From assembly GCA_031267295.1 (NCBI GenBank), contig JAIRZI010000096.1, positions 1-36,032 of the forward strand: 36,032 nucleotides of DNA, given 5' to 3'. Origin of the DNA: Propionibacteriaceae bacterium (lineage in GTDB: Bacteria > Actinomycetota > Actinomycetes > Propionibacteriales > Propionibacteriaceae). A model generated the notes under the pieces. The model searched no databases, was not told the DNA's origin, and was given only the letters and a program-made list of their open reading frames with translations. Within the stretch, counting starts at the first letter, position 1; each line of letters begins with the position of its first letter. Positions 13,725 to 29,495 of this stretch are shown in pieces. The position numbers were made by a program, and so were the translations under genes.

Positions 13725-14708
13725 GTGACCAAATACGTCATAAAACGCAGCCTTAATTATCTGGTGTTGCTGTTCGTCGCGTGTTCTTTCGCCTATCTGT
13801 TGGCGGCATCTTTCCTCAACCCTTACTCGGTGTATTTCGGTCGGCAACCACCGGTTGACCCGGATGTCATCGAGAGCATCATGCGGGAGTGCAACCTTTC
13901 TAACCAAGTGTCGTTGTGGGAGCGGTACACCACTTGGCTTACAAAAATCGTCACCGACTGGGATTGGGGTTGCTCGCCGTTGCAGGTCAGCGTAAATGAA
14001 CAGATCGGTATGCGGGTATGGGTTAGCCTCCGACTGGTGCTTATCGGCACTTTAGGCGGCGTAATCATTGGGGTGCTGGTGGGCGCTTGGACGGCTACCC
14101 GGCAGTATCGCATTCCGGATCGGGTGTACACGTTCCTTTCGTTGCTTATCATCTGCACTCCGAGTTTCGTGCTTGGTATTATGCTGCAAATCTTGGCCAC
14201 CAAGGCAAATAATGCACTAGGGGTTCGGGTTTTTGAGTTTGTGGGCGAAAAAGGCCCGATGGGGGATTACCCATTAGCGGAGCTTGTTGATCGGTTGCAA
14301 CATTTGTTGTTGCCCACCATCGTATTGATCTTACTCACCGCTGCTAGTCTCTCGCGGGTGCAACGAAATTTGATGCTCGATTCGCTCGGTGCAGATTATG
14401 TGCGTACTGCGCGCGCTAAAGGGTTGCCGAAATCTAAAGCGGTTATGAAACATGCACTGCGTACCGCGTTGATTCCCACCGGCACTTATGTGGCGTTCAC
14501 GGTCGCTACTATGTTCGTCGGCGCTACCTATACCGAGCGAGTATTCTCTTTTCCCGGCATGGGGCAGTATGGGGTCGATACCATTTTGGCGATGGACGTG
14601 AACGGCATCGTCGCCACTACGGCGTTCGCCGGGGTCTGTGTGGTGTGTGGTGCCATCCTTGCCGACATTGTGGTGGCCATCCTAGACCCTAGGGTGAGGT
14701 TGAGCTGA
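13725..14708 (+). CDS. oppB: oligopeptide ABC transporter permease (OppB/DppB type)
   Basis: A 327-residue inner-membrane permease of a peptide importer. An N-terminal membrane helix (SLNYLVLLFVACSFAYLLAASFL) is followed by a long extracytoplasmic segment, then five further hydrophobic helices. The EAA-type loop is seen as DYVRTARAKGLPKSKAVMKHALRTALIP, which contacts the ATPase. Start is GTG at 13725 behind GGAGG. It overlaps oppC by one base. The substrate (oligo- or dipeptide) is not readable. Confidence 0.9.
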   Translation: MTKYVIKRSLNYLVLLFVACSFAYLLAASFLNPYSVYFGRQPPVDPDVIESIMRECNLSNQVSLWERYTTWLTKIVTDWDWGCSPLQVSVNEQIGMRVWVSLRLVLIGTLGGVIIGVLVGAWTATRQYRIPDRVYTFLSLLIICTPSFVLGIMLQILATKANNALGVRVFEFVGEKGPMGDYPLAELVDRLQHLLLPTIVLILLTAASLSRVQRNLMLDSLGADYVRTARAKGLPKSKAVMKHALRTALIPTGTYVAFTVATMFVGATYTERVFSFPGMGQYGVDTILAMDVNGIVATTAFAGVCVVCGAILADIVVAILDPRVRLS

Positions 14709-15760
14709 TGAGTGCCGACTTACTACTTTCCTCCCCCCCCGTCGCCGATAGCGACGATGATGGCGGCACCGCGGTGGCTACTCGTATCGGACGCTCTCGA
14801 CTCATTTTGCGGCGGTTCTTGCGTAACAAGTTAGCGGTTTTTGGAAGCTGCGGCCTGCTGTTGTTGATTTTGATGGCCATCATTGGGCCGTTGTTTACTG
14901 GCTGGGATTTTATGGAGATCGACAAGCGGGCATTCTTGAAACCGCCAAACTCCACTCATTGGCTCGGTACCACTCGGGCGGGGCGTGATGTGCTGGCGCT
15001 CACTTTGCATGGCATGAGCCGTTCGTTAATTATCGGTTTCGTGGCGGCCACACTTTCTGCTTTACTAAGTGCCGTGGTGGGTACGGCATCTGCTTACTTT
15101 GGCGGTTGGACGGAACGCATTTTGTTGTGGATCACCGACTTGATGTTGGTTATCCCTAATCTGTTGATTATCGGTGTGTTGATGCGGGGCGGTGTCACTG
15201 GCAATCTGGCTTGGGTGATGTTGGCTTTCATGCTCGGCCTGTTCGGGTGGATGACCACCGGTCGCGTGGTGCGCTCCTTGACGCTCAGTTTGAAAAACCG
15301 CGAATATGTGTTGGCAGCAAAATACATGGGGTTGCCGGCATGGCGTATCATCATACGGCACATCCTGCCCAACATCTCGTCGTTGATGGTTGTCAACCTC
15401 ACATTAGGGGTGGGTTATGCGGTGCTCGGCGAAACTGGTTTGTCATTTCTCGGGCTGGGGGTACAAGCCCCCGATACCTCATTGGGCACTCTGATAGGTG
15501 AGGGTGCCAGCATGGCGACCACCTACTCTTGGATTTTCTTAACGCCGTCGGCGGTACTGGTATTTCTGGTTTTCTGTATCACTGCAATGGGTGATGGCAT
15601 CCGTGATGCGCTCGACCCATCCAGTCAATCCGGTGGCGTGGTTGGCGGCAAGCGTAAGAAAGCTAACAAGTCCGCTAAGACTACCGATGCTTTGTCGAGC
15701 GATGGTGCGTACTCTGGCGCTGTGGCGGCTGTCGAAGATAACGCCCCTAAGGAGGTGTAA
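14708..15760 (+). CDS. oppC: oligopeptide ABC transporter permease (OppC/DppC type)
   Basis: A 350-residue permease partner of OppB. It has the N-terminal OppC region (RRFLRNKLAVFGSCGLLLLILMAIIGPLFTGWDF), the HWLGTTRAGRDVLALTLHGMSRSLIIGF block, and the EAA loop NREYVLAAKYMGLPAWRIIIRHILPN. It ends with an unusual hydrophilic tail of about 45 residues after ALDPSSQSGG, rich in Lys, Ser and Ala. The start at 14708 overlaps the oppB stop, giving tight coupling. Confidence 0.9.
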   Translation: MSADLLLSSPPVADSDDDGGTAVATRIGRSRLILRRFLRNKLAVFGSCGLLLLILMAIIGPLFTGWDFMEIDKRAFLKPPNSTHWLGTTRAGRDVLALTLHGMSRSLIIGFVAATLSALLSAVVGTASAYFGGWTERILLWITDLMLVIPNLLIIGVLMRGGVTGNLAWVMLAFMLGLFGWMTTGRVVRSLTLSLKNREYVLAAKYMGLPAWRIIIRHILPNISSLMVVNLTLGVGYAVLGETGLSFLGLGVQAPDTSLGTLIGEGASMATTYSWIFLTPSAVLVFLVFCITAMGDGIRDALDPSSQSGGVVGGKRKKANKSAKTTDALSSDGAYSGAVAAVEDNAPKEV

Positions 15761-15762
15761 AC

Positions 15763-17817
15763 ATGAGTTTGCTCAGTGTGCGCGATCTGTATGTATCATT
15801 TCCGTCTGAGGCGGGGGACGTGCTCGCCGTACGAGGAATGTCGTTTGATCTGGAGCGGGGTCGCACGTTAGCGCTGGTTGGTGAATCCGGTTCCGGGAAA
15901 TCGGTTACCAGTTTGGCGATCATGGGGTTGCACCCGGAGTCGGCCACCATTACCGGTAGCGTCATGTTAGACGGTGCGGAACTGCTCAATGAGTCCGATG
16001 CTGCAATGAGTAAAATTCGTGGGAACCGTATCACTATGGTTTTCCAAGACCCGCTGTCTGCGCTTACTCCGGTGTACTCTGTCGGCGAGCAGATCGTAGA
16101 AACTATCCTCATCCATAACCCCGATACCACCAAAAAAGCTGCTTGGGAACGTGCGGTGGAGTTGTTGGCTATCGTCGGTATCCCCAATGCGGCTGAGCGG
16201 GCGCGGGCGTTTCCGTTTGAGTTCTCCGGCGGGATGCGCCAGCGGGTGATGATCGCTATGGCGATGGCGAACCAACCGGACATCATTATCGCCGATGAAC
16301 CAACCACCGCTTTGGATGTCACCATTCAAGCTCAGGTGTTGGAGGTTTTGCAACGCGCCCAAGCTGAAACTGGGGCGGCGATGATACTGATCACTCACGA
16401 TCTAGGTGTGGTTGCAGGATACGCCGACGAAGTGGTGGTGATGTACGCCGGACGTCCGGTAGAACAAGGCAGCATTGCCGACATCTTCTATCGTCCGTCC
16501 ATGCCGTACACGATCGGGTTGTTAGGCACGGTGCCGCGTCTCGATCATAAATCTGGCGAACCGTTACCGGTGTTGGATGGAAACCCGCCGGATGTGGTGC
16601 ATCTACCGCCCGGGTGTCCGTTCGCGTTGCGCTGTCCGTTGGCTAATGCGCAGTGTTCGCAAAGCGAACCGGAACTACAAGAGGTAAGTCCGGGGCACGT
16701 TGCCGCTTGTGTCCGGCTTAGTGAAGTGGTTGGCAAAGAACATGCCGAGATTTTCCCGACACCGCCATTGGAACGTGCCGTACTCGCTAAAGTGCCGCGT
16801 GAGCAGCGCGATACTGTGCTGGAGTTGATGAATCTGCGTAAGCATTTCCCACTGTTTAAAGGTGCGTTATATCGCCGTCAAGTGGGGGTGGTGCGGGCTG
16901 TTGACGGTATCAGCTTGGATGTGAAAAAGGGCGAAACTCTTGGTTTGGTGGGGGAGAGTGGTTCTGGTAAATCAACCACACTATTGGAGATTCTAGAACT
17001 GCTAAAACCGCAGCAGGGGAGCATTGTGGTGTTAGGCCACGATACGGCTACCCTCACTAAAACACAGCGTCGTCAACTGCGCCAACATGTGCAGGTGGTG
17101 TTCCAAGACCCGATGGCGGCGGTAGACCCGCGCATGACGGTGTTCGATATTATCGCCGAACCGTTGCAAGCTTTCGCTTGGGAGAAAGCGAAAGTTGAAA
17201 AACGGGTATTTGAACTATTGAGTCTGGTGGGGTTGCAGCCGGAACACGCTGATCGTTTCCCGCAACACTTCTCAGGCGGGCAACGCCAACGCATCGGCAT
17301 AGCGCGAGCCTTGGCGCTCAACCCTAGCATTTTGGTGTTAGACGAGCCGGTATCGGCGCTAGATGTGTCGATACAAGCCGGCATCATTAACCTCTTGGAG
17401 GCTTTGCAGCACAAGCTGTATTTGTCATATCTGATCGTGGCGCACGACCTCGCAGTGGTGCGTCACATCTCGGATCGGGTGGCGGTGATGTATCTGGGCA
17501 GCATAGTGGAAGTTGGTACGGTAAATGCGTTGTATGACGAACCGGCACACCCCTACACCCAGGCGTTGATTTCGGCGATTCCGATTCCCGACCCGAATAT
17601 TGAGCGCGCTCGACGGCGTATTGTGCTGCAAGGTGATTTGCCGAATCCGTCCGATGAAGTGCCCGGATGCAAGTTTTCTAGCAGGTGCCCAAAGCTGACC
17701 ACATTGTTGGATTCCGAGCGCACCAAATGTTTAACGCAAGTTCCAAGTTTGGAAAAAATCGGTGCGAAAGACCACCAGGTTGCTTGCCATTTTAGTGAGG
17801 CATTGCGGGTTTTCTAA
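15763..17817 (+). CDS. oppDF: fused peptide ABC transporter ATPase (OppD-OppF)
   Basis: A 684-residue protein with two complete ABC ATPase domains, which powers peptide uptake through OppB/OppC. Domain 1: Walker A GESGSGKS at residues 40-47, signature SGGMRQR, Walker B IIIADEPTTALD; its C-terminal oligopeptide-transporter region includes PPGCPFALRCPLANAQC. Domain 2: Walker A GESGSGKSTT near 395, signature SGGQRQR, Walker B ILVLDEPVSALD near 524; its C-terminal cysteine cluster is CKFSSRCP. Fused D-F proteins are common in Actinomycetota. It starts 2 bp after oppC behind AAGGAGG. Confidence 0.93.
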   Translation: MSLLSVRDLYVSFPSEAGDVLAVRGMSFDLERGRTLALVGESGSGKSVTSLAIMGLHPESATITGSVMLDGAELLNESDAAMSKIRGNRITMVFQDPLSALTPVYSVGEQIVETILIHNPDTTKKAAWERAVELLAIVGIPNAAERARAFPFEFSGGMRQRVMIAMAMANQPDIIIADEPTTALDVTIQAQVLEVLQRAQAETGAAMILITHDLGVVAGYADEVVVMYAGRPVEQGSIADIFYRPSMPYTIGLLGTVPRLDHKSGEPLPVLDGNPPDVVHLPPGCPFALRCPLANAQCSQSEPELQEVSPGHVAACVRLSEVVGKEHAEIFPTPPLERAVLAKVPREQRDTVLELMNLRKHFPLFKGALYRRQVGVVRAVDGISLDVKKGETLGLVGESGSGKSTTLLEILELLKPQQGSIVVLGHDTATLTKTQRRQLRQHVQVVFQDPMAAVDPRMTVFDIIAEPLQAFAWEKAKVEKRVFELLSLVGLQPEHADRFPQHFSGGQRQRIGIARALALNPSILVLDEPVSALDVSIQAGIINLLEALQHKLYLSYLIVAHDLAVVRHISDRVAVMYLGSIVEVGTVNALYDEPAHPYTQALISAIPIPDPNIERARRRIVLQGDLPNPSDEVPGCKFSSRCPKLTTLLDSERTKCLTQVPSLEKIGAKDHQVACHFSEALRVF

Positions 17818-17826
17818 GCTATAAAG

Positions 17827-17853
17827 CTGAGATGCTCATGAGAAATCTCTCAG
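17827..17853 (+). terminator. possible attenuating stem-loop between oppDF and oppA
   Basis: CTGAGA pairs with TCTCAG (17827-17832 with 17848-17853), with an alternative GAGAT/ATCTC pairing inside, and TTTT follows. It lies 10 bp after the oppDF stop and could partly terminate transcription or protect the upstream mRNA end. The stem is only 6 bp. Confidence 0.35.
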
Positions 17854-18011
17854 TTTTGGCTTGTCAGAAGCGTTTGTTATTGCTTTTCTGCGCTTTGAGG
17901 TGTTTCATTGTGGGAACGCTACTGTGCGGGTGCGCATGTTTTGTCCCCTATGGGCAAGGCGTTGGCAGCGTGAAAAAGTATGGAAATCTTTTACTTAAGG
18001 AGTTACGGCTA

Positions 18012-19727
18012 ATGAAAAAGCTTATTCCTGTGGTTGCTGGTGCATTGGCTCTTGCGTTGAGTTTGAGTGCGTGCAGTAACGACACTGATAAACCAGAGGA
18101 ACCGGGCGACGTTGTCGTGCCGAGCGAGGGCTGGGATGTGAATCCTAAGGCGTACGAGGAACTAAAGGATGGCGGTACTCTGACCATCCCGATGTCTTCG
18201 GAGTTGGTAACGTTCAACATCTATTCGGCTGTCGGCAATAACGCACAACTGGTGTTTGGCACCAGCCCACTGTCAGAGCCGTGGTACTTCGTAAATGGGC
18301 TGGGGGAACTTATCTGGAACCCGCTGTTCTTGACGGAAGAGCCGAAGCCGGTGATTACTGATGATCAAATGGTGATCACTCTTAAGATCAACCCCGCAGC
18401 GGTGTGGGCCGATGGTGCCAAGATCACTGCTGATGACTGGATCGCTACTTGGAAAGCGCGCAACGGCGAACAGAAAGAATACAAACTTGCCACTTCTGAC
18501 GGCTGGGAACAGATTGAGAGTATCACCTCCACAGATGATGGTGCCACTGCCACCATCACTTTCAAGACTACCTATCCAGATTGGTTGGCAATCGTCTACT
18601 TAGGCCCGCAGCGTGCTGAATCCGTCAAAGATGCCGAAACTTTCAATGATGGCTGGATTGATGCTGAAGTTGTGAAGAACTGGTTGTCTGGGCCGTTCAC
18701 CATCGAGAGTTTCGACAAAGCCACTAGTACGGTGACCATGGTGCGTAACCCTAATTGGTGGGGAGAAACTGCGAAGTTAGATAAAGTCATTCTTAAATAT
18801 GTGGCTGGGGCACAACAAGCTACCGCATTCGCCAACGGTGAAATCGACTACTATGACATCGGTTCTGACGCTGACGGCTACATACAGGCCACTACAGCTA
18901 TCAACTCTGTGGTGCGCCAGTCCAACGGTCCGAATTATCGACACTTCACCGTCAACTCGCAAACTCCAGCGTTGCGCGATGTCAATGTGCGTCAGGCAGT
19001 ACTCATGGGGTTAGATCGAGTAACTATTACGCAATCCGATCTAGTTGGTTTGCCGGTTGATGATGCTCAAATATCGAACAACGTTTTTGTGATGGGGCAG
19101 GAGGGTTACGTTGATCTCTCAGAGCAAACGGGGCTTAAATACGACGTTGCTGCTGCCAAAGCCAAGCTGGAGACTGCCGGTTATGTGATGAACGATGCCA
19201 CCGGTTTCTATGAAAAAGATGGCGCACAGCTAACGCTTTACTTTGCAGTGTTGACTGGTATCGTCGCCTCAGAGAATGAGGCTTTGCTCATTCAGAGTCA
19301 ACTCAAGGAAATCGGTATCGACATCCAGTTCCGGCAGATCAACACCGCTACCGATTGGCCGGGGGTGCTCACTGCGCACAACTTCGACATCATAGCGTTT
19401 TCTTGGATTGGTACGCCGTTCCCACTGCAGAACATCGGTCAGATATACGGTTGTTCTGCTGACGGCACTCCGTCCGATAGCAACTTCCCGCAGTTGTGCA
19501 ATGGAGAGATTGATTCCCTCCGGGAACAGATTGACACCGAAATGGATGTAGCCAAGCGCCTTGAACTTGGCAAGCAACTTGCGGAAAAGATTTGGACGGA
19601 GGTTCACACCATTACACTGTGGCAGCGCCCGACGCTGATCGGTGTGCGCGACACTTTGGCCAACATTGGCGCTGGGGGTATGGCGCGTACGCCTTATACC
19701 TGGGTGAATGTGGGCTACGTCGCCTGA
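18012..19727 (+). CDS. oppA: peptide-binding lipoprotein of the opp importer (solute-binding family 5)
   Basis: Extracytoplasmic substrate-binding lipoprotein that delivers peptides to OppBC. I start it at the ATG at 18012 (571 residues), behind AAGGAG 9 bp upstream. This yields a clean lipoprotein signal, MKKLIPVVAGALALALSLSA, with the lipid-attachment cysteine at residue 21 in LSAC. A longer in-frame start at 17832 would put 60 residues ahead of the signal peptide and is unlikely. Family 5 features include LKINPAAVWADGAKITADDWIATW, FKTTYPDWLAIV, VRQAVLMGLDRVTITQ, and FDIIAFSWIGTPFPLQNIGQIYGC. The 194-bp gap before it may carry its own promoter. Confidence 0.9.
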   Translation: MKKLIPVVAGALALALSLSACSNDTDKPEEPGDVVVPSEGWDVNPKAYEELKDGGTLTIPMSSELVTFNIYSAVGNNAQLVFGTSPLSEPWYFVNGLGELIWNPLFLTEEPKPVITDDQMVITLKINPAAVWADGAKITADDWIATWKARNGEQKEYKLATSDGWEQIESITSTDDGATATITFKTTYPDWLAIVYLGPQRAESVKDAETFNDGWIDAEVVKNWLSGPFTIESFDKATSTVTMVRNPNWWGETAKLDKVILKYVAGAQQATAFANGEIDYYDIGSDADGYIQATTAINSVVRQSNGPNYRHFTVNSQTPALRDVNVRQAVLMGLDRVTITQSDLVGLPVDDAQISNNVFVMGQEGYVDLSEQTGLKYDVAAAKAKLETAGYVMNDATGFYEKDGAQLTLYFAVLTGIVASENEALLIQSQLKEIGIDIQFRQINTATDWPGVLTAHNFDIIAFSWIGTPFPLQNIGQIYGCSADGTPSDSNFPQLCNGEIDSLREQIDTEMDVAKRLELGKQLAEKIWTEVHTITLWQRPTLIGVRDTLANIGAGGMARTPYTWVNVGYVA

Positions 19728-22893: not shown

Positions 22894-24165
22894 CTATGTT
22901 GTGAGGTCATTCCAGATTGCGGATATAGGCATGGCTCGGCGACGTGCCCCGAATGGTACGGTATCTGTGCCGGTGTATAGCACAATCCCTGCGATAAAGT
23001 CGTTGCCGAGTCTGCTCTCCAGGTGGGCTATGCCACGAAAATCTTCGGCTCTAGGGGTGGAGGAAGCCTTGACATCAATCGCTACGACTCGTCCGCGGCT
23101 GTCTTCCAGAATTAGGTCTACTTCAGTTTGGTCTTTTGTGCGATAGTGATAGAGAACTGCGGGGGTTTCACACCATGATAGTTGACGGGCGAGTTCCATA
23201 GCTACGAACCCCTCAAGTAACCCGCCCAGTGGGTTACTTTGTTTCGTCAGACCATCGGTGTTATAGCCTAGTTGGCTTGCAGCGATACCGGAATCAACGA
23301 ATGCGACCTTTTCGGTGGTTATCGCTCGTTGGGTTAGATTGCGAGACCAGGCAGGAATGCGTTTGATTAGGAAAACCTCTTCCAGTAAAACGAGATAGCG
23401 ACGGATAGTTGTAACTGGTAGCCCGGTTTCTTTCGAAAGATGAGCTGGAACCAGCAGTTGTCCCGATCTAGCAGCGATCAAGCGTATGAGTTGGCGTAGT
23501 TGCACTGAACGTTCTATCTGAGCAACCTGCATCACATCACGGTTCACTAGATCGGCGACATAGGAGTTATGAAAAACAGTGCGACGACGATCTGCACGAG
23601 CCACTGCTTCTGGAAATCCTCCTCGGACTAGGCGTTCAATGTAGCTGTGTCGGGTATCTACCGATGTGAAGTGCAACTGTGTACCATGCGAAAACAAGAC
23701 ATCTATAAAACTTCTTTGACCGGTTTGATCAATCTCGCCTTGAGAAAGCGGCCATAACTCAATAGTTTCCATTCGTCCAGGGAGGGCATCAGACACTTCG
23801 CGCAGACCCATCAATCGTGCAGATCCGGTAAGTAGGAAAGCGCCAGGACGGGGGTTGGAATCGACTTCGTGTTTTATGCTCAAAAGCAGGTCAGGTACTC
23901 GCTGTACTTCATCAATTACCAGCATTTGGTTACTCAATAAAAACTGGTTTGGATCTGCTGTTGCTGATTCTCGCCATGCGGGGGCATCCAGGCTTCGCAT
24001 CACACCGTTGTATTTGTCAGCCAATTGGGCTGCAAGGGTGCTTTTTCCGCATTGCCGCGCTCCGTTCACCAAAACCACGCGGGTGTCTGCTAGCGCGGCT
24101 TCAACTGTTGCCGCTGCCCGGCGCGGCAACAGTTGTCCCAGTGGGGATTTTGGAATGTTTACCAT
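22894..24165 (-). CDS. AAA+ ATPase with C-terminal DUF4143 (ATPase 3)
   Basis: A 423-residue archaeal-type AAA+ ATPase of unknown role, of a different subfamily from the other two in the window. Walker A is GARQCGKST at 35-43; Walker B is MLVIDEVQR near 85; FLLTGSARLMG is the sensor block; a central winged-helix-like stretch LVPAHLSKETGLPVTTIRRYLVLL precedes the DUF4143 part. The C-terminal TEVDLILED...VAIDVKASS follows the PD-(D/E)XK nuclease-like pattern more fully than the others. The ATG at 24165 has only a weak ribosome-binding site. The gene is convergent with map and bracketed by two copies of the neighbouring gene's 3' end. Confidence 0.9.
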   Translation of the reverse strand: MVNIPKSPLGQLLPRRAAATVEAALADTRVVLVNGARQCGKSTLAAQLADKYNGVMRSLDAPAWRESATADPNQFLLSNQMLVIDEVQRVPDLLLSIKHEVDSNPRPGAFLLTGSARLMGLREVSDALPGRMETIELWPLSQGEIDQTGQRSFIDVLFSHGTQLHFTSVDTRHSYIERLVRGGFPEAVARADRRRTVFHNSYVADLVNRDVMQVAQIERSVQLRQLIRLIAARSGQLLVPAHLSKETGLPVTTIRRYLVLLEEVFLIKRIPAWSRNLTQRAITTEKVAFVDSGIAASQLGYNTDGLTKQSNPLGGLLEGFVAMELARQLSWCETPAVLYHYRTKDQTEVDLILEDSRGRVVAIDVKASSTPRAEDFRGIAHLESRLGNDFIAGIVLYTGTDTVPFGARRRAMPISAIWNDLTT

Positions 24166-24657: not shown

Positions 24658-24930
24658 ATGGCGGAACAACGATTACAGATCAATATGCCGAATGAACAGG
24701 CGATAGGCGTGTATGCCGACTTTGTACGCGCTTGGCACACTAACGACGCTTTTGTGCTCGACTTTGCCGCGTTGCATGAGCCAGCCACTTCCACCGACGA
24801 CGGCGTGCTGATTAAAGCTGGAGTGGTGTCGCGGGTGCGCATTCCGCCAAGTCAGGTGTTTGAGCTAATGAAAGCGTTAGAGCAACAACTTTCTGCGTGG
24901 GAGAAAGAAACCGGCCGCAACGGCGTGTAG
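24658..24930 (+). CDS. small DUF3467-like protein
   Basis: A 90-residue protein of unknown role. IGVYADFVRAWHTNDAFVLDFAAL, followed by SRVRIPPSQVFELMKALEQQLSAWEKETG, follows the DUF3467 pattern (a YADF/YANF strand, FVLDF, then SRI/VxxxPxxxxxLxxAL). Small genes of this kind are widespread in Actinomycetota. It starts at the ATG at 24658 and lies 27 bp before the aminotransferase gene, so it may be its co-transcribed leader gene. Confidence 0.7.
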   Translation: MAEQRLQINMPNEQAIGVYADFVRAWHTNDAFVLDFAALHEPATSTDDGVLIKAGVVSRVRIPPSQVFELMKALEQQLSAWEKETGRNGV

Positions 24931-24957: not shown

Positions 24958-26202
24958 ATGAGTCAAGAGGTTTTCGAGAAGTACGAATCGAACGTTCGCT
25001 CGTATTCCCGCAGTTTTCCCACCATTTTCACTCGGGCTAAAGGGTCGTTGTTGTATGACATCTCCGGGCGTGAGTTCATCGACTTTTTCTGTGGTGCCGG
25101 CGCACTTAACTATGGGCATAACCCCGACTACATCAAAGCTAAGCTGGCGGCGTATCTCGAATCAGACGGTGTCATGCATTCGCTTGACATGTACACCGTA
25201 CCCAAGGCGGAGTTCATTGAATACTTCGAGACGAAAATTATTGAGCCGCGCGGATTCGATTACAAAATCATGTTCACCGGTCCTACCGGCACCAACGCCG
25301 TAGAAGCTGGGTTGAAGTTGGCTCGCAAGATCACTAAACGTCTAGGGGTGTTCGCATTCCAGGGCGCTTATCACGGTATGACGCTCGGTTCGCTCGCCCT
25401 CACTACGGACGCTGGTTCGCGCTCTGGTGCCGGAGTGCCGCTCGGCAACGTCACTCACCTCCCAGCCCCGTACCAATATGGCGAAGAGTTTGCCCTCACT
25501 TATTTTGAAGACCTCATCACCTCCGATCACTCTGGGGTGGAACTTCCAGCGGCACTCGCATTAGAGACGGTACAAGCTGAAGGCGGAGTGCATGTGTTCA
25601 GCAACGCATTCCTGCAAGGGTTGCAGCGTATCTGCAAACGTTATGGCATTCTGTTGTTGGTTGACGACATTCAGGTGGGGTGTGCTCGCACGGGTCGTTT
25701 CTTTAGCTTTGAACGAGCTGGAATCAAGCCGGACATCGTAGTGGTATCTAAATCTATCGGCGGATATGGAATGCCGATGGCGCTCACCTTGTTTCGTCCC
25801 GAGTTAGACATCTGGTCGCCGGGGGAGCATAACGGCACTTTCCGCGGCAATCAGCTAGCTATCGTGGCCGCCAAAGCAGGTTTAGAAGTGCTGCTTAACG
25901 ATCACGTCGAGGACGGTGTCACTGAACGCGAAACCATTGTGCGTGATTTCTTAAACACAAACGTTGCTAACATCCCCGGAGTGCAGGAAGTGCGTGGCCG
26001 GGGGCTAATTTGGGGTATCGATGTTGGAACCGATGCTAAGGCGGCAAAGATCGCTAAGGCGGCATACAACTCTGGGCTGATCATGGAACGTGCCGGGCGT
26101 GATAACTCGGTGTTGAAGATCATGCCAAGTTTAGTGATTCCGCTGGATACGTTGCAGCTTGGATTGGAGATCGTGGCGCAAGTGGTGCAGGAAACTAGGT
26201 AG
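24958..26202 (+). CDS. diaminobutyrate--2-oxoglutarate aminotransferase, EctB-like
   Basis: A 414-residue class III PLP aminotransferase. In the EctB family it converts L-aspartate semialdehyde and glutamate to L-2,4-diaminobutyrate. EctB-specific blocks run through the protein: VRSYSRSFPTIFTRAKGSLLYD, FFCGAGALNYGHN, FTGPTGTNAVEAGLKLARK, LLVDDIQVGCARTGRFFSFERAGIKPDIV, SKSIGGYGMPMALTLFRPELDIW and PGEHNGTFRGNQLA. The PLP lysine is K265. No ectA or ectC is present, so ectoine synthesis is not supported by context. Instead murT-like and gatD-like genes follow after 5 bp, which points to a cell-wall use of diaminobutyrate. The substrate could differ slightly; the family call itself is firm. Confidence 0.88.
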   Translation: MSQEVFEKYESNVRSYSRSFPTIFTRAKGSLLYDISGREFIDFFCGAGALNYGHNPDYIKAKLAAYLESDGVMHSLDMYTVPKAEFIEYFETKIIEPRGFDYKIMFTGPTGTNAVEAGLKLARKITKRLGVFAFQGAYHGMTLGSLALTTDAGSRSGAGVPLGNVTHLPAPYQYGEEFALTYFEDLITSDHSGVELPAALALETVQAEGGVHVFSNAFLQGLQRICKRYGILLLVDDIQVGCARTGRFFSFERAGIKPDIVVVSKSIGGYGMPMALTLFRPELDIWSPGEHNGTFRGNQLAIVAAKAGLEVLLNDHVEDGVTERETIVRDFLNTNVANIPGVQEVRGRGLIWGIDVGTDAKAAKIAKAAYNSGLIMERAGRDNSVLKIMPSLVIPLDTLQLGLEIVAQVVQETR

Positions 26203-26207
26203 CAGCT

Positions 26208-27413
26208 ATGAGGTTTTTGATCGCACTTTGGGCGGCGAAAGCGTCTGCTGTACTGCTGCGGTTGCTGGGACGGAACGCCACACAGTTCCCTGGCGCGTTG
26301 GCGATGCGGCTTTGCCCCGGATTCCTAGCGAAGGTCGGGAAGCCTGCTCGTATCATCGCTATCACTGGTAGCAATGGAAAAACCACCACCACTAACTTCA
26401 TCGTCGCTGCTTTAGAGGCGCTCGGAGTGCGGCTACTGTCAAACAAACTTGGCTCCAATTTGGAAGCCGGTATCGCCACTTCGCTTGCGTTGGGTGCGAA
26501 ACTCACCGGCGCGCCACGCTGCGCAGTTGCCGTTTTTGAAGTGGACGAACGAGCGTCAAAACTTATCTATGCCCATGTCACCCCGGAACTGCTGTTGATC
26601 ACTAATCTCACCAACGACACCATCAAACGCAACGCTCACCCGTCTTACATTCGTTGGATTATTGAACAAGCTTTGCCGTCCAGTACAAAACTGGTGCTCA
26701 ACGCCGCCGACCCGGTTAGTGCGATGCTGGCTGTCGATCATAAACGAGTGTTTTTCGCACTAGACGCAGTAGCTGACTATCGGGCGCTTAGCTGGGGTGA
26801 CGGTGTGTTGCGAGCATCCACTCCGACAGGTGAGCAGGAGTATCCACTGATTCATGACAACCGAGTGAACGTCGCTAATGAGGTTGCCGCCGTAGCAGTG
26901 TTGAGTGAGTTCGGAGTTAGCGAGATTGCTCGGGGGCTAGCTGCGGCAAAGGTTCCGGGTTCGCGTTACCAAAAAGAAATGATCAGTTGGCTTAGCGTGG
27001 TGTCTATGACTGCAAAATCCGCTAGTCCTCCTGCGGTTTCTACGGCGTTGCGCTACGCAGCGGATGCGCCGGGGCGCAAGGCGCTTATTGTGGCCTATGA
27101 CGATATTGGCGAGTTCGATACGGGATGCGAAAACACTTGTTGGTACTACGATGTCGACTTCACAGCGCTTACTGATCCGTCATTTGTTTTCATAGTGTTT
27201 GCTGGGCCGCGACATTTGGACGCTGTTGTCAGGGCACTGCTGGCCGGGGTGGATTCAGCGCTGATTCGCAGCACCCCCGCAGAGGATGCTGCGGCGGATT
27301 TAGTTAAGTTGGACGGCGTTGACAAACTGTTTTTGCTGCACGACTCGCCGCTTGTCAATTCGGAACCGATCATCAAGGCCGGATTACGACGCAGGTTGGG
27401 GGTGAGCGCGTGA
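26208..27413 (+). CDS. murT: MurT-like Mur ligase lacking the zinc ribbon
   Basis: A 401-residue protein of the MurT branch of Mur ligases, which in other Gram-positives uses ATP to activate the alpha-carboxyl of D-Glu in lipid II for amidation with GatD. The N-terminal hydrophobic segment, the P-loop ITGSNGKTT (52-60), the NKLGSNLEAGIATSL block, LITNLTNDTIKR and the C-terminal DVDF signature (D315) are present. The four-cysteine zinc ribbon usually inserted in the central domain is absent; no cysteine occurs between about 105 and 300, and the protein is about 35 residues shorter than typical MurT. The usual DRYGE-type motif is replaced by KRNAHP. It overlaps gatD by 4 bp. A variant acceptor or donor is likely. 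Confidence 0.8.
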   Translation: MRFLIALWAAKASAVLLRLLGRNATQFPGALAMRLCPGFLAKVGKPARIIAITGSNGKTTTTNFIVAALEALGVRLLSNKLGSNLEAGIATSLALGAKLTGAPRCAVAVFEVDERASKLIYAHVTPELLLITNLTNDTIKRNAHPSYIRWIIEQALPSSTKLVLNAADPVSAMLAVDHKRVFFALDAVADYRALSWGDGVLRASTPTGEQEYPLIHDNRVNVANEVAAVAVLSEFGVSEIARGLAAAKVPGSRYQKEMISWLSVVSMTAKSASPPAVSTALRYAADAPGRKALIVAYDDIGEFDTGCENTCWYYDVDFTALTDPSFVFIVFAGPRHLDAVVRALLAGVDSALIRSTPAEDAAADLVKLDGVDKLFLLHDSPLVNSEPIIKAGLRRRLGVSA

Positions 27414-28138
27414 TAATCGAACATTTATATCCGGAAGTCGCCAATCTGTACGGCGATCCGTATAACGTTGAGATTTTACGGTTAAGTCGTCCAGATGCGC
27501 TGGTAATTGAAACGCAGTTAGCTGAAGCGCCAGCCTTTGCTGTCCGGGATGACATCGACCTGGTGTATCTCGGTTCGATGACGGAAGCTGCGCAGCAGCA
27601 GGCGGCGGATGCACTGGAGCCGTACCGGGAGCGCATCGCCTTACTTGTTCGTCTGGGTAAGCATTTCCTCTTCACTGGCAACGCGCTTGATTTGGTGGGG
27701 GAGCGCGTCGTCAACCACGATATGGGTTACGAGTTTGCCGGGTTGGGGTTTTTCCAGTTTGTTACCACACTACGGATGTTTTCTCGGGTACATAATCGCA
27801 TGTTCACTACAGTTAACGGTTTGCCGATGGTGGGGTATCGTTCCACTTTCAGCTACCACGCTTTGCGTGGTGAGCAACGCAGTGTGGACTGGGGGTTCGG
27901 CCATATCGTACAGGGGCAGGGGCTTGCCGCTGGTTGCGATGAGGGGGTGAGGTTGCATAATCTCATCGCCACCGAAATCATCGGCCCGCTGCTGATCACT
28001 AACCCGCTGTTCACCAAGCAGTTGTTAGCGGTGATCGGTGGTGGCGATGCGCCGTTGGCACACGAAGAAGCGTTGCTGGCTGCATATCAAGCTAGATTGG
28101 CTGAGTTCCGCGACCCGCGTCGCTGGGGTGGACATTAA
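27410..28138 (+). CDS. gatD: GatD-like protein with both catalytic residues replaced
   Basis: A 242-residue homolog of GatD, the glutaminase partner of MurT. The family's N-terminus is clear (LYPEVANLYGDPYNVEILRL), as are GLGFFQF and the C-terminal IGPLLITNPLF block. The class I glutaminase nucleophile motif (normally ICGGYQLLG) reads FTGNALDLVG, with Thr89 at the Cys position. The catalytic His of GTYLHGPLL is replaced by Ile191 in ATEIIGPLL. The only cysteine is C176, outside these motifs. Glutamine hydrolysis is therefore not expected. The reading frame is intact and overlaps murT (TGATA context), so the protein is probably maintained as a structural or binding partner. Confidence 0.8.
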   Translation: MIIEHLYPEVANLYGDPYNVEILRLSRPDALVIETQLAEAPAFAVRDDIDLVYLGSMTEAAQQQAADALEPYRERIALLVRLGKHFLFTGNALDLVGERVVNHDMGYEFAGLGFFQFVTTLRMFSRVHNRMFTTVNGLPMVGYRSTFSYHALRGEQRSVDWGFGHIVQGQGLAAGCDEGVRLHNLIATEIIGPLLITNPLFTKQLLAVIGGGDAPLAHEEALLAAYQARLAEFRDPRRWGGH

Positions 28139-28164
28139 AATAAGTTGGTTGCGTAGCGACATTT

Positions 28165-29388
28165 TTACGGTTGAGCCATTAGCCAATCGAGACACGATAT
28201 TTGCAAAATGCCATCGTGCGATATTGGTGGGTTCTGATCGAGGGTAAGCAGATACTTTGGATGGTGGTCTCGTAGTGCGAGCAGCGGTTTCAACTCGCGG
28301 GCTAACGTGGCTGGGTCGCGTAGCGTTTCACACACCTGGTAGTAAACGGTATCCGCCCCGTCGCCTACAACGAAATCGATTTCGCCTGACGCAACTGCGC
28401 CGACACGTACCTTGCCATTACGGCGTACTAGCTCAAGGAATACGATATTTTCCAAGATGTGGCCGGTATCACTCCCGGTAAAACCAACTAATGCGGCACG
28501 CAACCCTGGGTCTACTACATAGTATTTTTCTGACCCGGTGAGGTAACGCAACCCTTTGACATCCCATCGCCGTGCAGGGTAACAGAGGTAAGCGCTGGTC
28601 AGCCCAGAAATGTACTTGTCGATAGTGGTGCTTGATGGGGATCGGCCAGCTGATTCTAAACCAGCGCTCACTCGCCGCAACGACGTTAGGTTGCCAATGT
28701 TATGAAACAGGAAGCGCACCACATCTTCGAGCGCAGCGGCGGTTGACACCTGCTGGCGTATAACAACGTCTTTTAGGAGCACTGTGTCAAGGATGCCATT
28801 CAAGTAATCGCTGACGGCAACGGCATCCGGAATCAAATTGAGCACGAATGGGAATGAACCATAGCGAATGTACTCCGTATAGAGCGCAGTGAGTGATAAG
28901 TCATCGGGGTTTTGTTGCCGACGACCGGTTACAAACTCAGCAAACGACAAAGGCAGTAGCGATAACTCAACATAACGACCAGAAAGCAGTGTGGCTAGTT
29001 CGCCGGAGAGCAGGCTGGCGTTGGAACCTGTTATATAGAGGTCTATGTTGGCTCGCAACAGCAAGCTGTCGGCCATTCGTTCGTAATGCTCCACCAACTG
29101 CACTTCATCGAGGAAGACGTATGTGGTGCCAGTTGGGGCAAGATTTTCGATGATGTAGTCATGCAAGTTTTTGTGATTTGTAACTAGTTCTGCGTTGGCT
29201 AAGTCATCCATTGCGAGTGCAATGATGTTGGCCGCTGGCACTCCTTCGGCAAGTAGTTCGCGTTGAAAGAGCGTTAGCAGCGTCGATTTACCGCAGCGAC
29301 GTACGCCAGTTATTACTTTGATAACTTGGCGATCACGCCAGCGGCGAAGCATAGCTAACCCTTCAGGTCTGCTCAGTAATGCGTACAT
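28165..29388 (-). CDS. AAA+ ATPase with C-terminal DUF4143 (ATPase 2)
   Basis: A 407-residue AAA+ ATPase of unknown role, close to ATPase 1. I use the internal ATG at 29388 instead of one 13 codons upstream, because it aligns exactly with the ATPase 1 N-terminus: Walker A GVRRCGKST then lies at 28-36 in both. Walker B TYVFLDEVQ, YITGSNASLLSGELATLLSGRY and LLPLSFAEF are shared with ATPase 1. The winged-helix-like region and the C-terminal GEIDFVVGD...VYYQVCET nuclease-like pattern are also present. The start codon lies inside a 32-bp palindrome (29384-29415), and no Shine-Dalgarno is visible, so translation may be leaderless or controlled there. It is convergent with gatD (26-bp gap) and downstream of typA. 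Confidence 0.88.
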   Translation of the reverse strand: MYALLSRPEGLAMLRRWRDRQVIKVITGVRRCGKSTLLTLFQRELLAEGVPAANIIALAMDDLANAELVTNHKNLHDYIIENLAPTGTTYVFLDEVQLVEHYERMADSLLLRANIDLYITGSNASLLSGELATLLSGRYVELSLLPLSFAEFVTGRRQQNPDDLSLTALYTEYIRYGSFPFVLNLIPDAVAVSDYLNGILDTVLLKDVVIRQQVSTAAALEDVVRFLFHNIGNLTSLRRVSAGLESAGRSPSSTTIDKYISGLTSAYLCYPARRWDVKGLRYLTGSEKYYVVDPGLRAALVGFTGSDTGHILENIVFLELVRRNGKVRVGAVASGEIDFVVGDGADTVYYQVCETLRDPATLARELKPLLALRDHHPKYLLTLDQNPPISHDGILQISCLDWLMAQP

Positions 29389-29495
29389 ATTGTCCAGTGT
29401 ACTGGACAATATGTATAAATATTCCAATATCGTCTAATAGACTGGACAATATTGATAAACGTACCTATATCGCTCAACGTGCTGAACAATGTGGT
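29384..29495. repeat. three palindromes at exact 40-bp period upstream of ATPase 2
   Basis: Palindrome 1 (29384-29415) is perfect with 15-bp arms around a 2-bp centre and contains ATTGTCCAGT/ACTGGACAAT. Palindrome 2 (29424-29455) keeps 11 of 15 arm pairs and palindrome 3 (29464-29495) keeps 9 of 15. The right half RCTGRACAATRT is well conserved in all three. The centres are at 29399.5, 29439.5 and 29479.5, exactly 40 bp apart, or close to four helical turns, which suits a protein bound on one face of DNA. Palindrome 1 overlaps the ATPase 2 start codon, which favours autoregulation. Confidence 0.88.

Follow-up and report, generated by a model that had tools for sequence, protein, structure and literature searches.

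The 36,032 nucleotides analysed here (the window) are positions 1 to 36,032 of contig JAIRZI010000096.1 in the GenBank assembly GCA_031267295.1 of a Propionibacteriaceae bacterium. Between 24,958 and 28,138 they carry a tight co-directional operon, ectB-murT-gatD, in which the open reading frames (ORFs) leave a gap of 5 bp between ectB and murT and overlap by 4 bp at murT and gatD (Table 1). The first gene encodes an EctB-like aminotransferase of the kind that forms 2,4-diaminobutyrate (DAB). The other two encode relatives of MurT and GatD, the subunits of lipid II isoglutaminyl synthase, and this pair has lost its entire glutaminase triad while keeping an intact ATP site and fold. The host genome (G000), that of an uncultured bacterium, is a metagenome-assembled genome (MAG) of 1.69 Mb that is 95.65% complete, and the gene absences given for it come from single-family searches of this approximately 96% complete MAG. 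The nearest named loci belong to 'Propionibacteriaceae bacterium' MAGs, among them ones labelled Emb289 and Lab288. MAGs so labelled come from the guts of higher termites (PMC7024585).

Table 1. Features of the ectB-murT-gatD operon and its immediate flanks in the window
Feature	Position	Strand	Basis
EctB-like diaminobutyrate--2-oxoglutarate aminotransferase	24958..26202	+	414 aa; NF006733, 570 bits
Codon of the pyridoxal phosphate (PLP) lysine, Lys265, of the EctB-like protein	25750	+	codon check
MurT-like ligase without zinc ribbon	26208..27413	+	401 aa; PF08353 41.3 bits, PF08245 37 bits; AlphaFold model resembles MurT chains
MurT ATP motif GSNGKT, intact	26367..26384	+	alignment and codons
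MurT Glu308 and Asn309 (Asn309 at the position of triad Asp349)	27129..27134	+	alignment to PDB MurT sequences, family alignment, codons
GatD-like subunit, GTG start, glutaminase-dead	27410..28138	+	242 aa; profile and model match GatD
GatD Gly90 (at the position of nucleophile Cys94) and invariant Asn91	27677..27682	+	alignment, codons
GatD Ile191 (at the position of catalytic His189)	27980..27982	+	alignment, codons
Terminator-like hairpin and T run 3' of gatD (weak)	28148..28160	+	consensus match only
DUF3467 small protein, 27 bp 5' of ectB	24658..24930	+	PF11950, 42 bits

The MurT-like protein exceeds the cut-offs of PF08353 and PF08245. The GatD-like protein matches PF07685 below the cut-off, and the NCBIfam equivalog scores of the two subunits are far under threshold (102 against 800 bits and 29 against 450). 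A profile built from five close GatD homologues matched only GatD chains in the PDB. The AlphaFold model of the GatD-like subunit (predicted local distance difference test, pLDDT, 95.5) finds its best PDB matches in the GatD of MurT/GatD complexes with Z of 24-25, the next family scoring about 16.7. The MurT model (pLDDT 90.2) is best matched by MurT chains (Z 28-31). The window MurT has no CxxC pair and so no Cys4 zinc ribbon. The ribbon is found in a second MurT of the same genome and in most homologues, although it is not universal even in true MurTs.

In Staphylococcus aureus the glutaminase triad spans the two subunits and consists of GatD Cys94 and His189 with MurT Asp349. With C94S or C94G no glutamine-dependent amidation remains, and with D349N it is lost or severely impaired (PMC6113224, PMC3266927). 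All three positions are replaced in the window pair: Cys94 by Gly90, His189 by Ile191 and Asp349 by Asn309, the last placed by alignment to the PDB sequences 7q8e and 6gs2. The motifs GSNGKT and FEVDER of the MurT are intact. With the triad lost and the ATP motifs kept, the ligase half is retained and its ammonia supply is gone. An earlier note on this DNA had described three ORFs over the same coordinates, with the same 5 bp between EctB and MurT, and had called the first a diaminobutyrate-forming aminotransferase with no ectoine genes. Both descriptions agree with ours, no ectoine genes having been found in the window. Its further statement that the MurT/GatD pair is altered proved correct and can be made stronger, since the whole inter-subunit triad is gone, and this loss supports its suggestion that the ligase has dropped glutamine-derived ammonia.

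The S. aureus MurT/GatD_C94G enzyme still condenses external NH3 at pH 8.5 and still requires GatD to do so, but at pH 7.5 it uses neither NH3 nor NH4Cl (PMC3266927). A dead GatD thus does not stop the ligase, which explains both why GatD is retained and how an external amine could enter. The same experiments bear on the possibility that the Cys-less complex works as an isoglutaminyl synthase dependent on ammonia, making D-isoglutamine from the free NH3 that is plentiful in guts while EctB has some other role. The activity at pH 8.5 favours this, as does the origin of many homologues in gut or rumen MAGs; the inactivity at pH 7.5 counts against it. We regard it as unlikely, also for reasons that emerge below from the Microbacteriaceae and from the neighbours of the pair.

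The loss is a family trait. Scanning genome contigs with the GatD alignment yielded at least 80 loci from Oscillospiraceae, other Clostridia, Erysipelotrichaceae, Mogibacterium, Coriobacteriales, Microbacteriaceae and Propionibacteriaceae. The scan patterns were derived from Cys-less sequences, so that the counts describe this family and not all GatDs. In Mogibacterium pumilum ATCC 700696 a single MurT was detected, and its GatD is Cys-less. The Cys is absent from 65 of the 65 GatD sequences recovered, which span Bacillota and Actinomycetota, and the His from nearly all. TGNA or a variant stands where CGGYQ is expected, and in the MurTs ADGxDxSW has given way to SEN/VEN-x-x-W or something similar. 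Beside the lost residues new ones have become invariant: GatD Asn91, adjoining the lost Cys, shows no exception among 53 aligned members, nor does MurT Glu308, adjoining the lost Asp, among 46. This indicates a rebuilt site and not erosion. A degenerate or purely regulatory pair without catalysis might be imagined from three missing catalytic residues, but it is highly improbable given ATP motifs intact in all family members, the new invariant residues, the intact ORFs and a pairing conserved over a wide phylogenetic range. Local decay to a pseudogene is ruled out by the intact ORFs and a pattern fixed in 65 homologues. That so large and overlooked a family shares the loss suggests that it attaches amino acids to the wall where some bacteria cross-link unusually. 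In the openly licensed literature we found neither a Cys-less GatD nor ligase genes for group B bridges described before.

Group B cross-bridges start at the alpha-carboxyl of D-Glu, and a bridge of two residues goes on from the carboxyl of its first residue. Fem-type transferases build outward from an amino group and are unable to work in this way. A bridge that starts at a carboxyl therefore needs an ATP-dependent carboxyl-activating ligase, of Mur type or ATP-grasp type, and not a Fem-type transferase. MurT is the ligase known for that D-Glu carboxyl. Supposing that MurT in group B cells works on the carboxyl it normally uses, it would have to make the bridge and not an amide.

The Microbacteriaceae are the classical family of group B peptidoglycan. 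The wall of one member, Rhodoluna lacicola, is of type B2beta with diaminobutyrate (PMC4156110). MurT is present in 45 of the 60 Microbacteriaceae genomes sampled, and 39 of these 45 have a Cys-less GatD; seven have a GatD with Cys, one of them having both kinds. Among murT-bearing genomes of other Propionibacteriaceae genera the Cys-less form is found in none of 23, Cys being present in all. The difference is large (Fisher p ~2e-12), but the genomes are related and the real weight lies in two loss events and not in the p value. Indeed, the MurT tree requires the Cys to have been lost twice, once in the TGNA/THNA family and once in a clade of Microbacteriaceae whose sister group has the Cys. 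An ammonia-dependent synthase leaves this independent loss unexplained, in a family where the D-Glu carboxyl carries the cross-bridge. In Erysipelothrix, taken as a known group B comparison, MurT was found in only one of the three genomes of that group.

Two further observations concern the same family. A Cys-bearing GatD subtype, CGLYQ...HGS/HGP, is shared by Microbacteriaceae (L137-L142) and by the congeners G004 and G001 of the window organism (L004, L005), which suggests gene transfer between families. In one Microbacteriaceae genome (G125; L273, 5124-6910) two tandem alanine-racemase-like genes adjoin a Cys-less murT/gatD on the opposite strand.

The EctB-like protein passes NF006733 (cut-off 438 bits) and falls 1.1 bits short of TIGR02407 (551.1 against 552.2). 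Congeners of it are encoded in G005 (86%), again directly 5' of murT, and in G003 (66%), where the order is murT, gatD, an Alr-like racemase and ectB. In G001 and G004, where GatD still has its Cys, no EctB was found. Outside the genus, ectB lies directly 5' of murT in a Clostridiaceae locus (L045) and a Coriobacteriales locus (L047). The link between EctB and murT/gatD thus extends to five genomes, in two gene orders. These five EctBs form one clade (support 99/100) apart from those of Microbacteriaceae and other Propionibacteriales, two of which adjoin genes resembling ectD or ectA, while the MurTs partnered with them fall in three separate subclades. One EctB clade joined repeatedly to different MurT lineages is good evidence for a functional link. 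In the family, an Alr-like racemase lies 3' of gatD in L080, L086 and L098. The repeated linkage to EctB and a racemase is left unexplained by an ammonia-dependent synthase.

Membership of the EctB family might alternatively mean that the protein serves ectoine, compatible-solute or siderophore synthesis and lies beside murT/gatD by chance. No ectA or ectC neighbour is present in the window. The separate clade and the adjacency to murT/gatD that recurs across phyla also make such a role very unlikely. The ectoine synthase family PF06339 gave no match in the seven genomes of the genus, nor did it in the controls. The best available reading is that the complex is a ligase using an amino acid instead of ammonia from glutamine, with DAB the likely donor here; we give it about an even chance of being right.

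Further support for a role in the wall comes from flippases. Three loci from Oscillospiraceae and related MAGs encode a natural fusion, with a MOP flippase of the SpoVB/MurJ kind at the N-terminus and the Cys-less MurT behind it (L097, 2852-6004; L103, 373-3453; L105, 233-3298), and in L083 a flippase gene of this kind lies 30 bp 5' of the pair. Such fusion and adjacency make it very probable that the substrate is a lipid-linked wall precursor. The same association is seen at the second murT/gatD pair of G000 (C53:49575), where murJ follows 3', as it does in G005. The order at this second locus (L033, contig C53, 5247-11361) is ATPgrasp_ST, lysC, murT, gatD, murJ. Its MurT keeps the zinc ribbon and its GatD has lost both Cys and His, by which a role as a true amidase is ruled out; neither of the two pairs examined in G000 is intact. 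With two Cys-less pairs each, G000 and G005 might attach two residues one after the other, or modify two acceptors. An ATPgrasp_ST ligase lies directly 5' of murT in six loci and could extend a bridge. The adjoining lysC encodes the first enzyme of the aspartate pathway, which feeds diaminobutyrate synthesis. Misassembly or contamination of the window is unlikely, since ectB-murT recurs in G005, and in G006 the pair occupies the corresponding position, with secY-adk-map on one side and bipA-purA on the other.

The MurE enzymes bear on what occupies position 3 of the stem peptide. Host MurE (L174/L219, C15:23387-24883) has GTKGKT and carries ASPR where MurEs that add diaminopimelate (DAP) have DNPR. 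ASPR-type enzymes are also found in G002, G006, G063 and G064, and DNPR enzymes in G004 and G009, which are Cys-bearing relatives. Among Microbacteriaceae whose pairs are divergent, most have HHPR or YHPR. The host motif suggests a non-DAP residue at stem position 3 there and counts in favour of the DAB ligase. DapB is present in G000.

Several observations weigh against a DAB ligase of group B walls. Six murT-bearing Microbacteriaceae hold only the Cys form of GatD, and 15 of the 60 show no MurT. EctB occurs in only 9 of the 60, the other 51 giving no match at E 1e-60. Classical DAB walls therefore mostly do without such an EctB, which is ruled out as a supplier of DAB to group B walls in general. 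Most Cys-less family members likewise have no EctB nearby, so that the general function must be broader than DAB. At the window locus of G006 (L037/L041) the order is DUF3467, murT, gatD, and no ectB was found in this 88% complete genome; EctB is thus a removable module. The window operon contains no racemase, and a single Alr-like gene was found in the genome. The EctB-linked genomes of Clostridiaceae and Coriobacteriales, G061 and G062, have the DAP-type MurE motif DNPR, which, with the DapB of G000, means that a DAB-based B2gamma wall is not generalisable. L-DAB at stem position 3 is also weakened as the whole explanation by these two enzymes. Finally, a survey in which murTgatD is widespread in Clostridiales treats it as an amidotransferase (PMC6085368); the excerpts of the survey considered here speak of no missing triad. 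The G006 locus offers a natural comparison for what EctB contributes.

Some of these points would suit a ligase that adds another amine, such as glycine, another amino acid or a polyamine, with EctB feeding a separate step, for example an unusual MurE that fills stem position 3, or polyamine synthesis from DAB. The family members and the congener without EctB, the ASPR motif of the host MurE and the polyamines known on the same carboxyl in Negativicutes (PMC10628300) all fit. The genes that ectB accompanies are nonetheless murT and gatD, across five genomes and three lineages of MurT; it shows no such tie with murE or a DAB decarboxylase, and the MurEs of G061 and G062 are of DAP type. We consider this alternative improbable.

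The DAB ligase may be pictured as follows. The complex would be a two-subunit ATP-dependent ligase descended from MurT/GatD. EctB would supply DAB, and on lipid II MurT would activate the D-Glu alpha-carboxyl of the stem peptide. The GatD-like subunit would hydrolyse no glutamine and would act as a structural partner, its remodelled pocket, with MurT Glu308, perhaps admitting an external amine. This amine would most likely be L- or D-DAB from EctB, racemised in the congener G003 by the Alr-like protein. The product would be lipid II whose D-Glu bears an amino acid, and a transpeptidase could turn this into a cross-bridge of group B (2-4) type. The reaction, the donor and the cross-bridge are what we infer; a group B cross-bridge is plausible for the window operon. 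A wider proposal, which we hold tentatively and at somewhat less than an even chance, is that glutaminase-dead MurT/GatD pairs are the ligases that found group B bridges. They would have arisen at least twice, in the Microbacteriaceae and in the Bacillota/Actinomycetota family that includes the window, each time giving up the hydrolysis of glutamine and taking an amino acid instead, which would be DAB in EctB-linked operons and its D-isomer in some taxa. Where a genome has two pairs, these would add one residue each, in succession.

The earlier note had proposed that the ligase attaches DAB or another amine in a dedicated group B pathway. The loss of the ammonia route and the tie between EctB and the ligase uphold part of this, but the DAB substrate and the group B wall are not supported as it worded them. 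It had also suggested asking whether the operon co-occurs with group B walls. The Cys-less GatD of 39 of 45 murT-bearing Microbacteriaceae is the pattern expected if enzymes of this kind start group B bridges; an EctB of this kind is absent from most of the family. An intact second pair, which it had named as grounds for abandoning the proposal, is not what the genome holds, the second pair being likewise glutaminase-dead.

Group B peptidoglycan has reportedly served as a taxonomic marker since Schleifer and Kandler in 1972. To our knowledge no enzyme that attaches the group B bridge to D-Glu has been identified. The data offer a candidate gene pair together with a residue-level signature that separates it from the amidating MurT/GatD. 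If the proposal is true, cross-bridge type could be read from genomes, and the annotation as isoglutaminyl synthase would be wrong for many clostridial and microbacterial murT/gatD genes.

Other features of the window are less closely connected with the operon. The DUF3467 gene possibly shares a transcript with ectB-murT-gatD. Hairpins of the type seen 3' of gatD at 28148 are no more frequent than in shuffled sequence. A complete oligopeptide ABC transporter (two permeases, a double ATPase and SBP_bac_5; 13725-19727) lies within the ribosomal protein cluster, between an rplO-like gene and secY. Three AAA_14/DUF4143 ATPase genes are present in the 36 kb (1274-2479, 22894-24165 and 28165-29427), two of which flank the operon region.

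The closest known system is the MurT/GatD lipid II isoglutaminyl synthase of S. aureus (6gs2/6h5e), Streptococcus pneumoniae (6fqb) and Streptococcus pyogenes (9sq9). The window pair shares with it the two-gene operon, the Mur ligase middle and MurT_C domains, both subunit folds and the ATP and Mg motifs, and differs in the replacement of the full triad and in a MurT that lacks the zinc ribbon. The EctB resembles that of ectoine pathways in family, length, PLP lysine and NF006733 score, but it stands in its own clade and is tied to murT/gatD in place of ectA or ectD. Group B peptidoglycan, as in R. lacicola, likewise has an amino acid, often DAB, on the D-Glu alpha-carboxyl, and the Microbacteriaceae mostly have a Cys-less GatD. 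However, the main Microbacteriaceae clade lost its Cys separately, and most of its genomes lack an EctB of this kind. In the polyamine-modified D-Glu of Negativicutes, too, this carboxyl bears an amine that is not ammonia, although there the amines are the decarboxylated diamines cadaverine and putrescine, which tether the outer membrane (PMC10628300).

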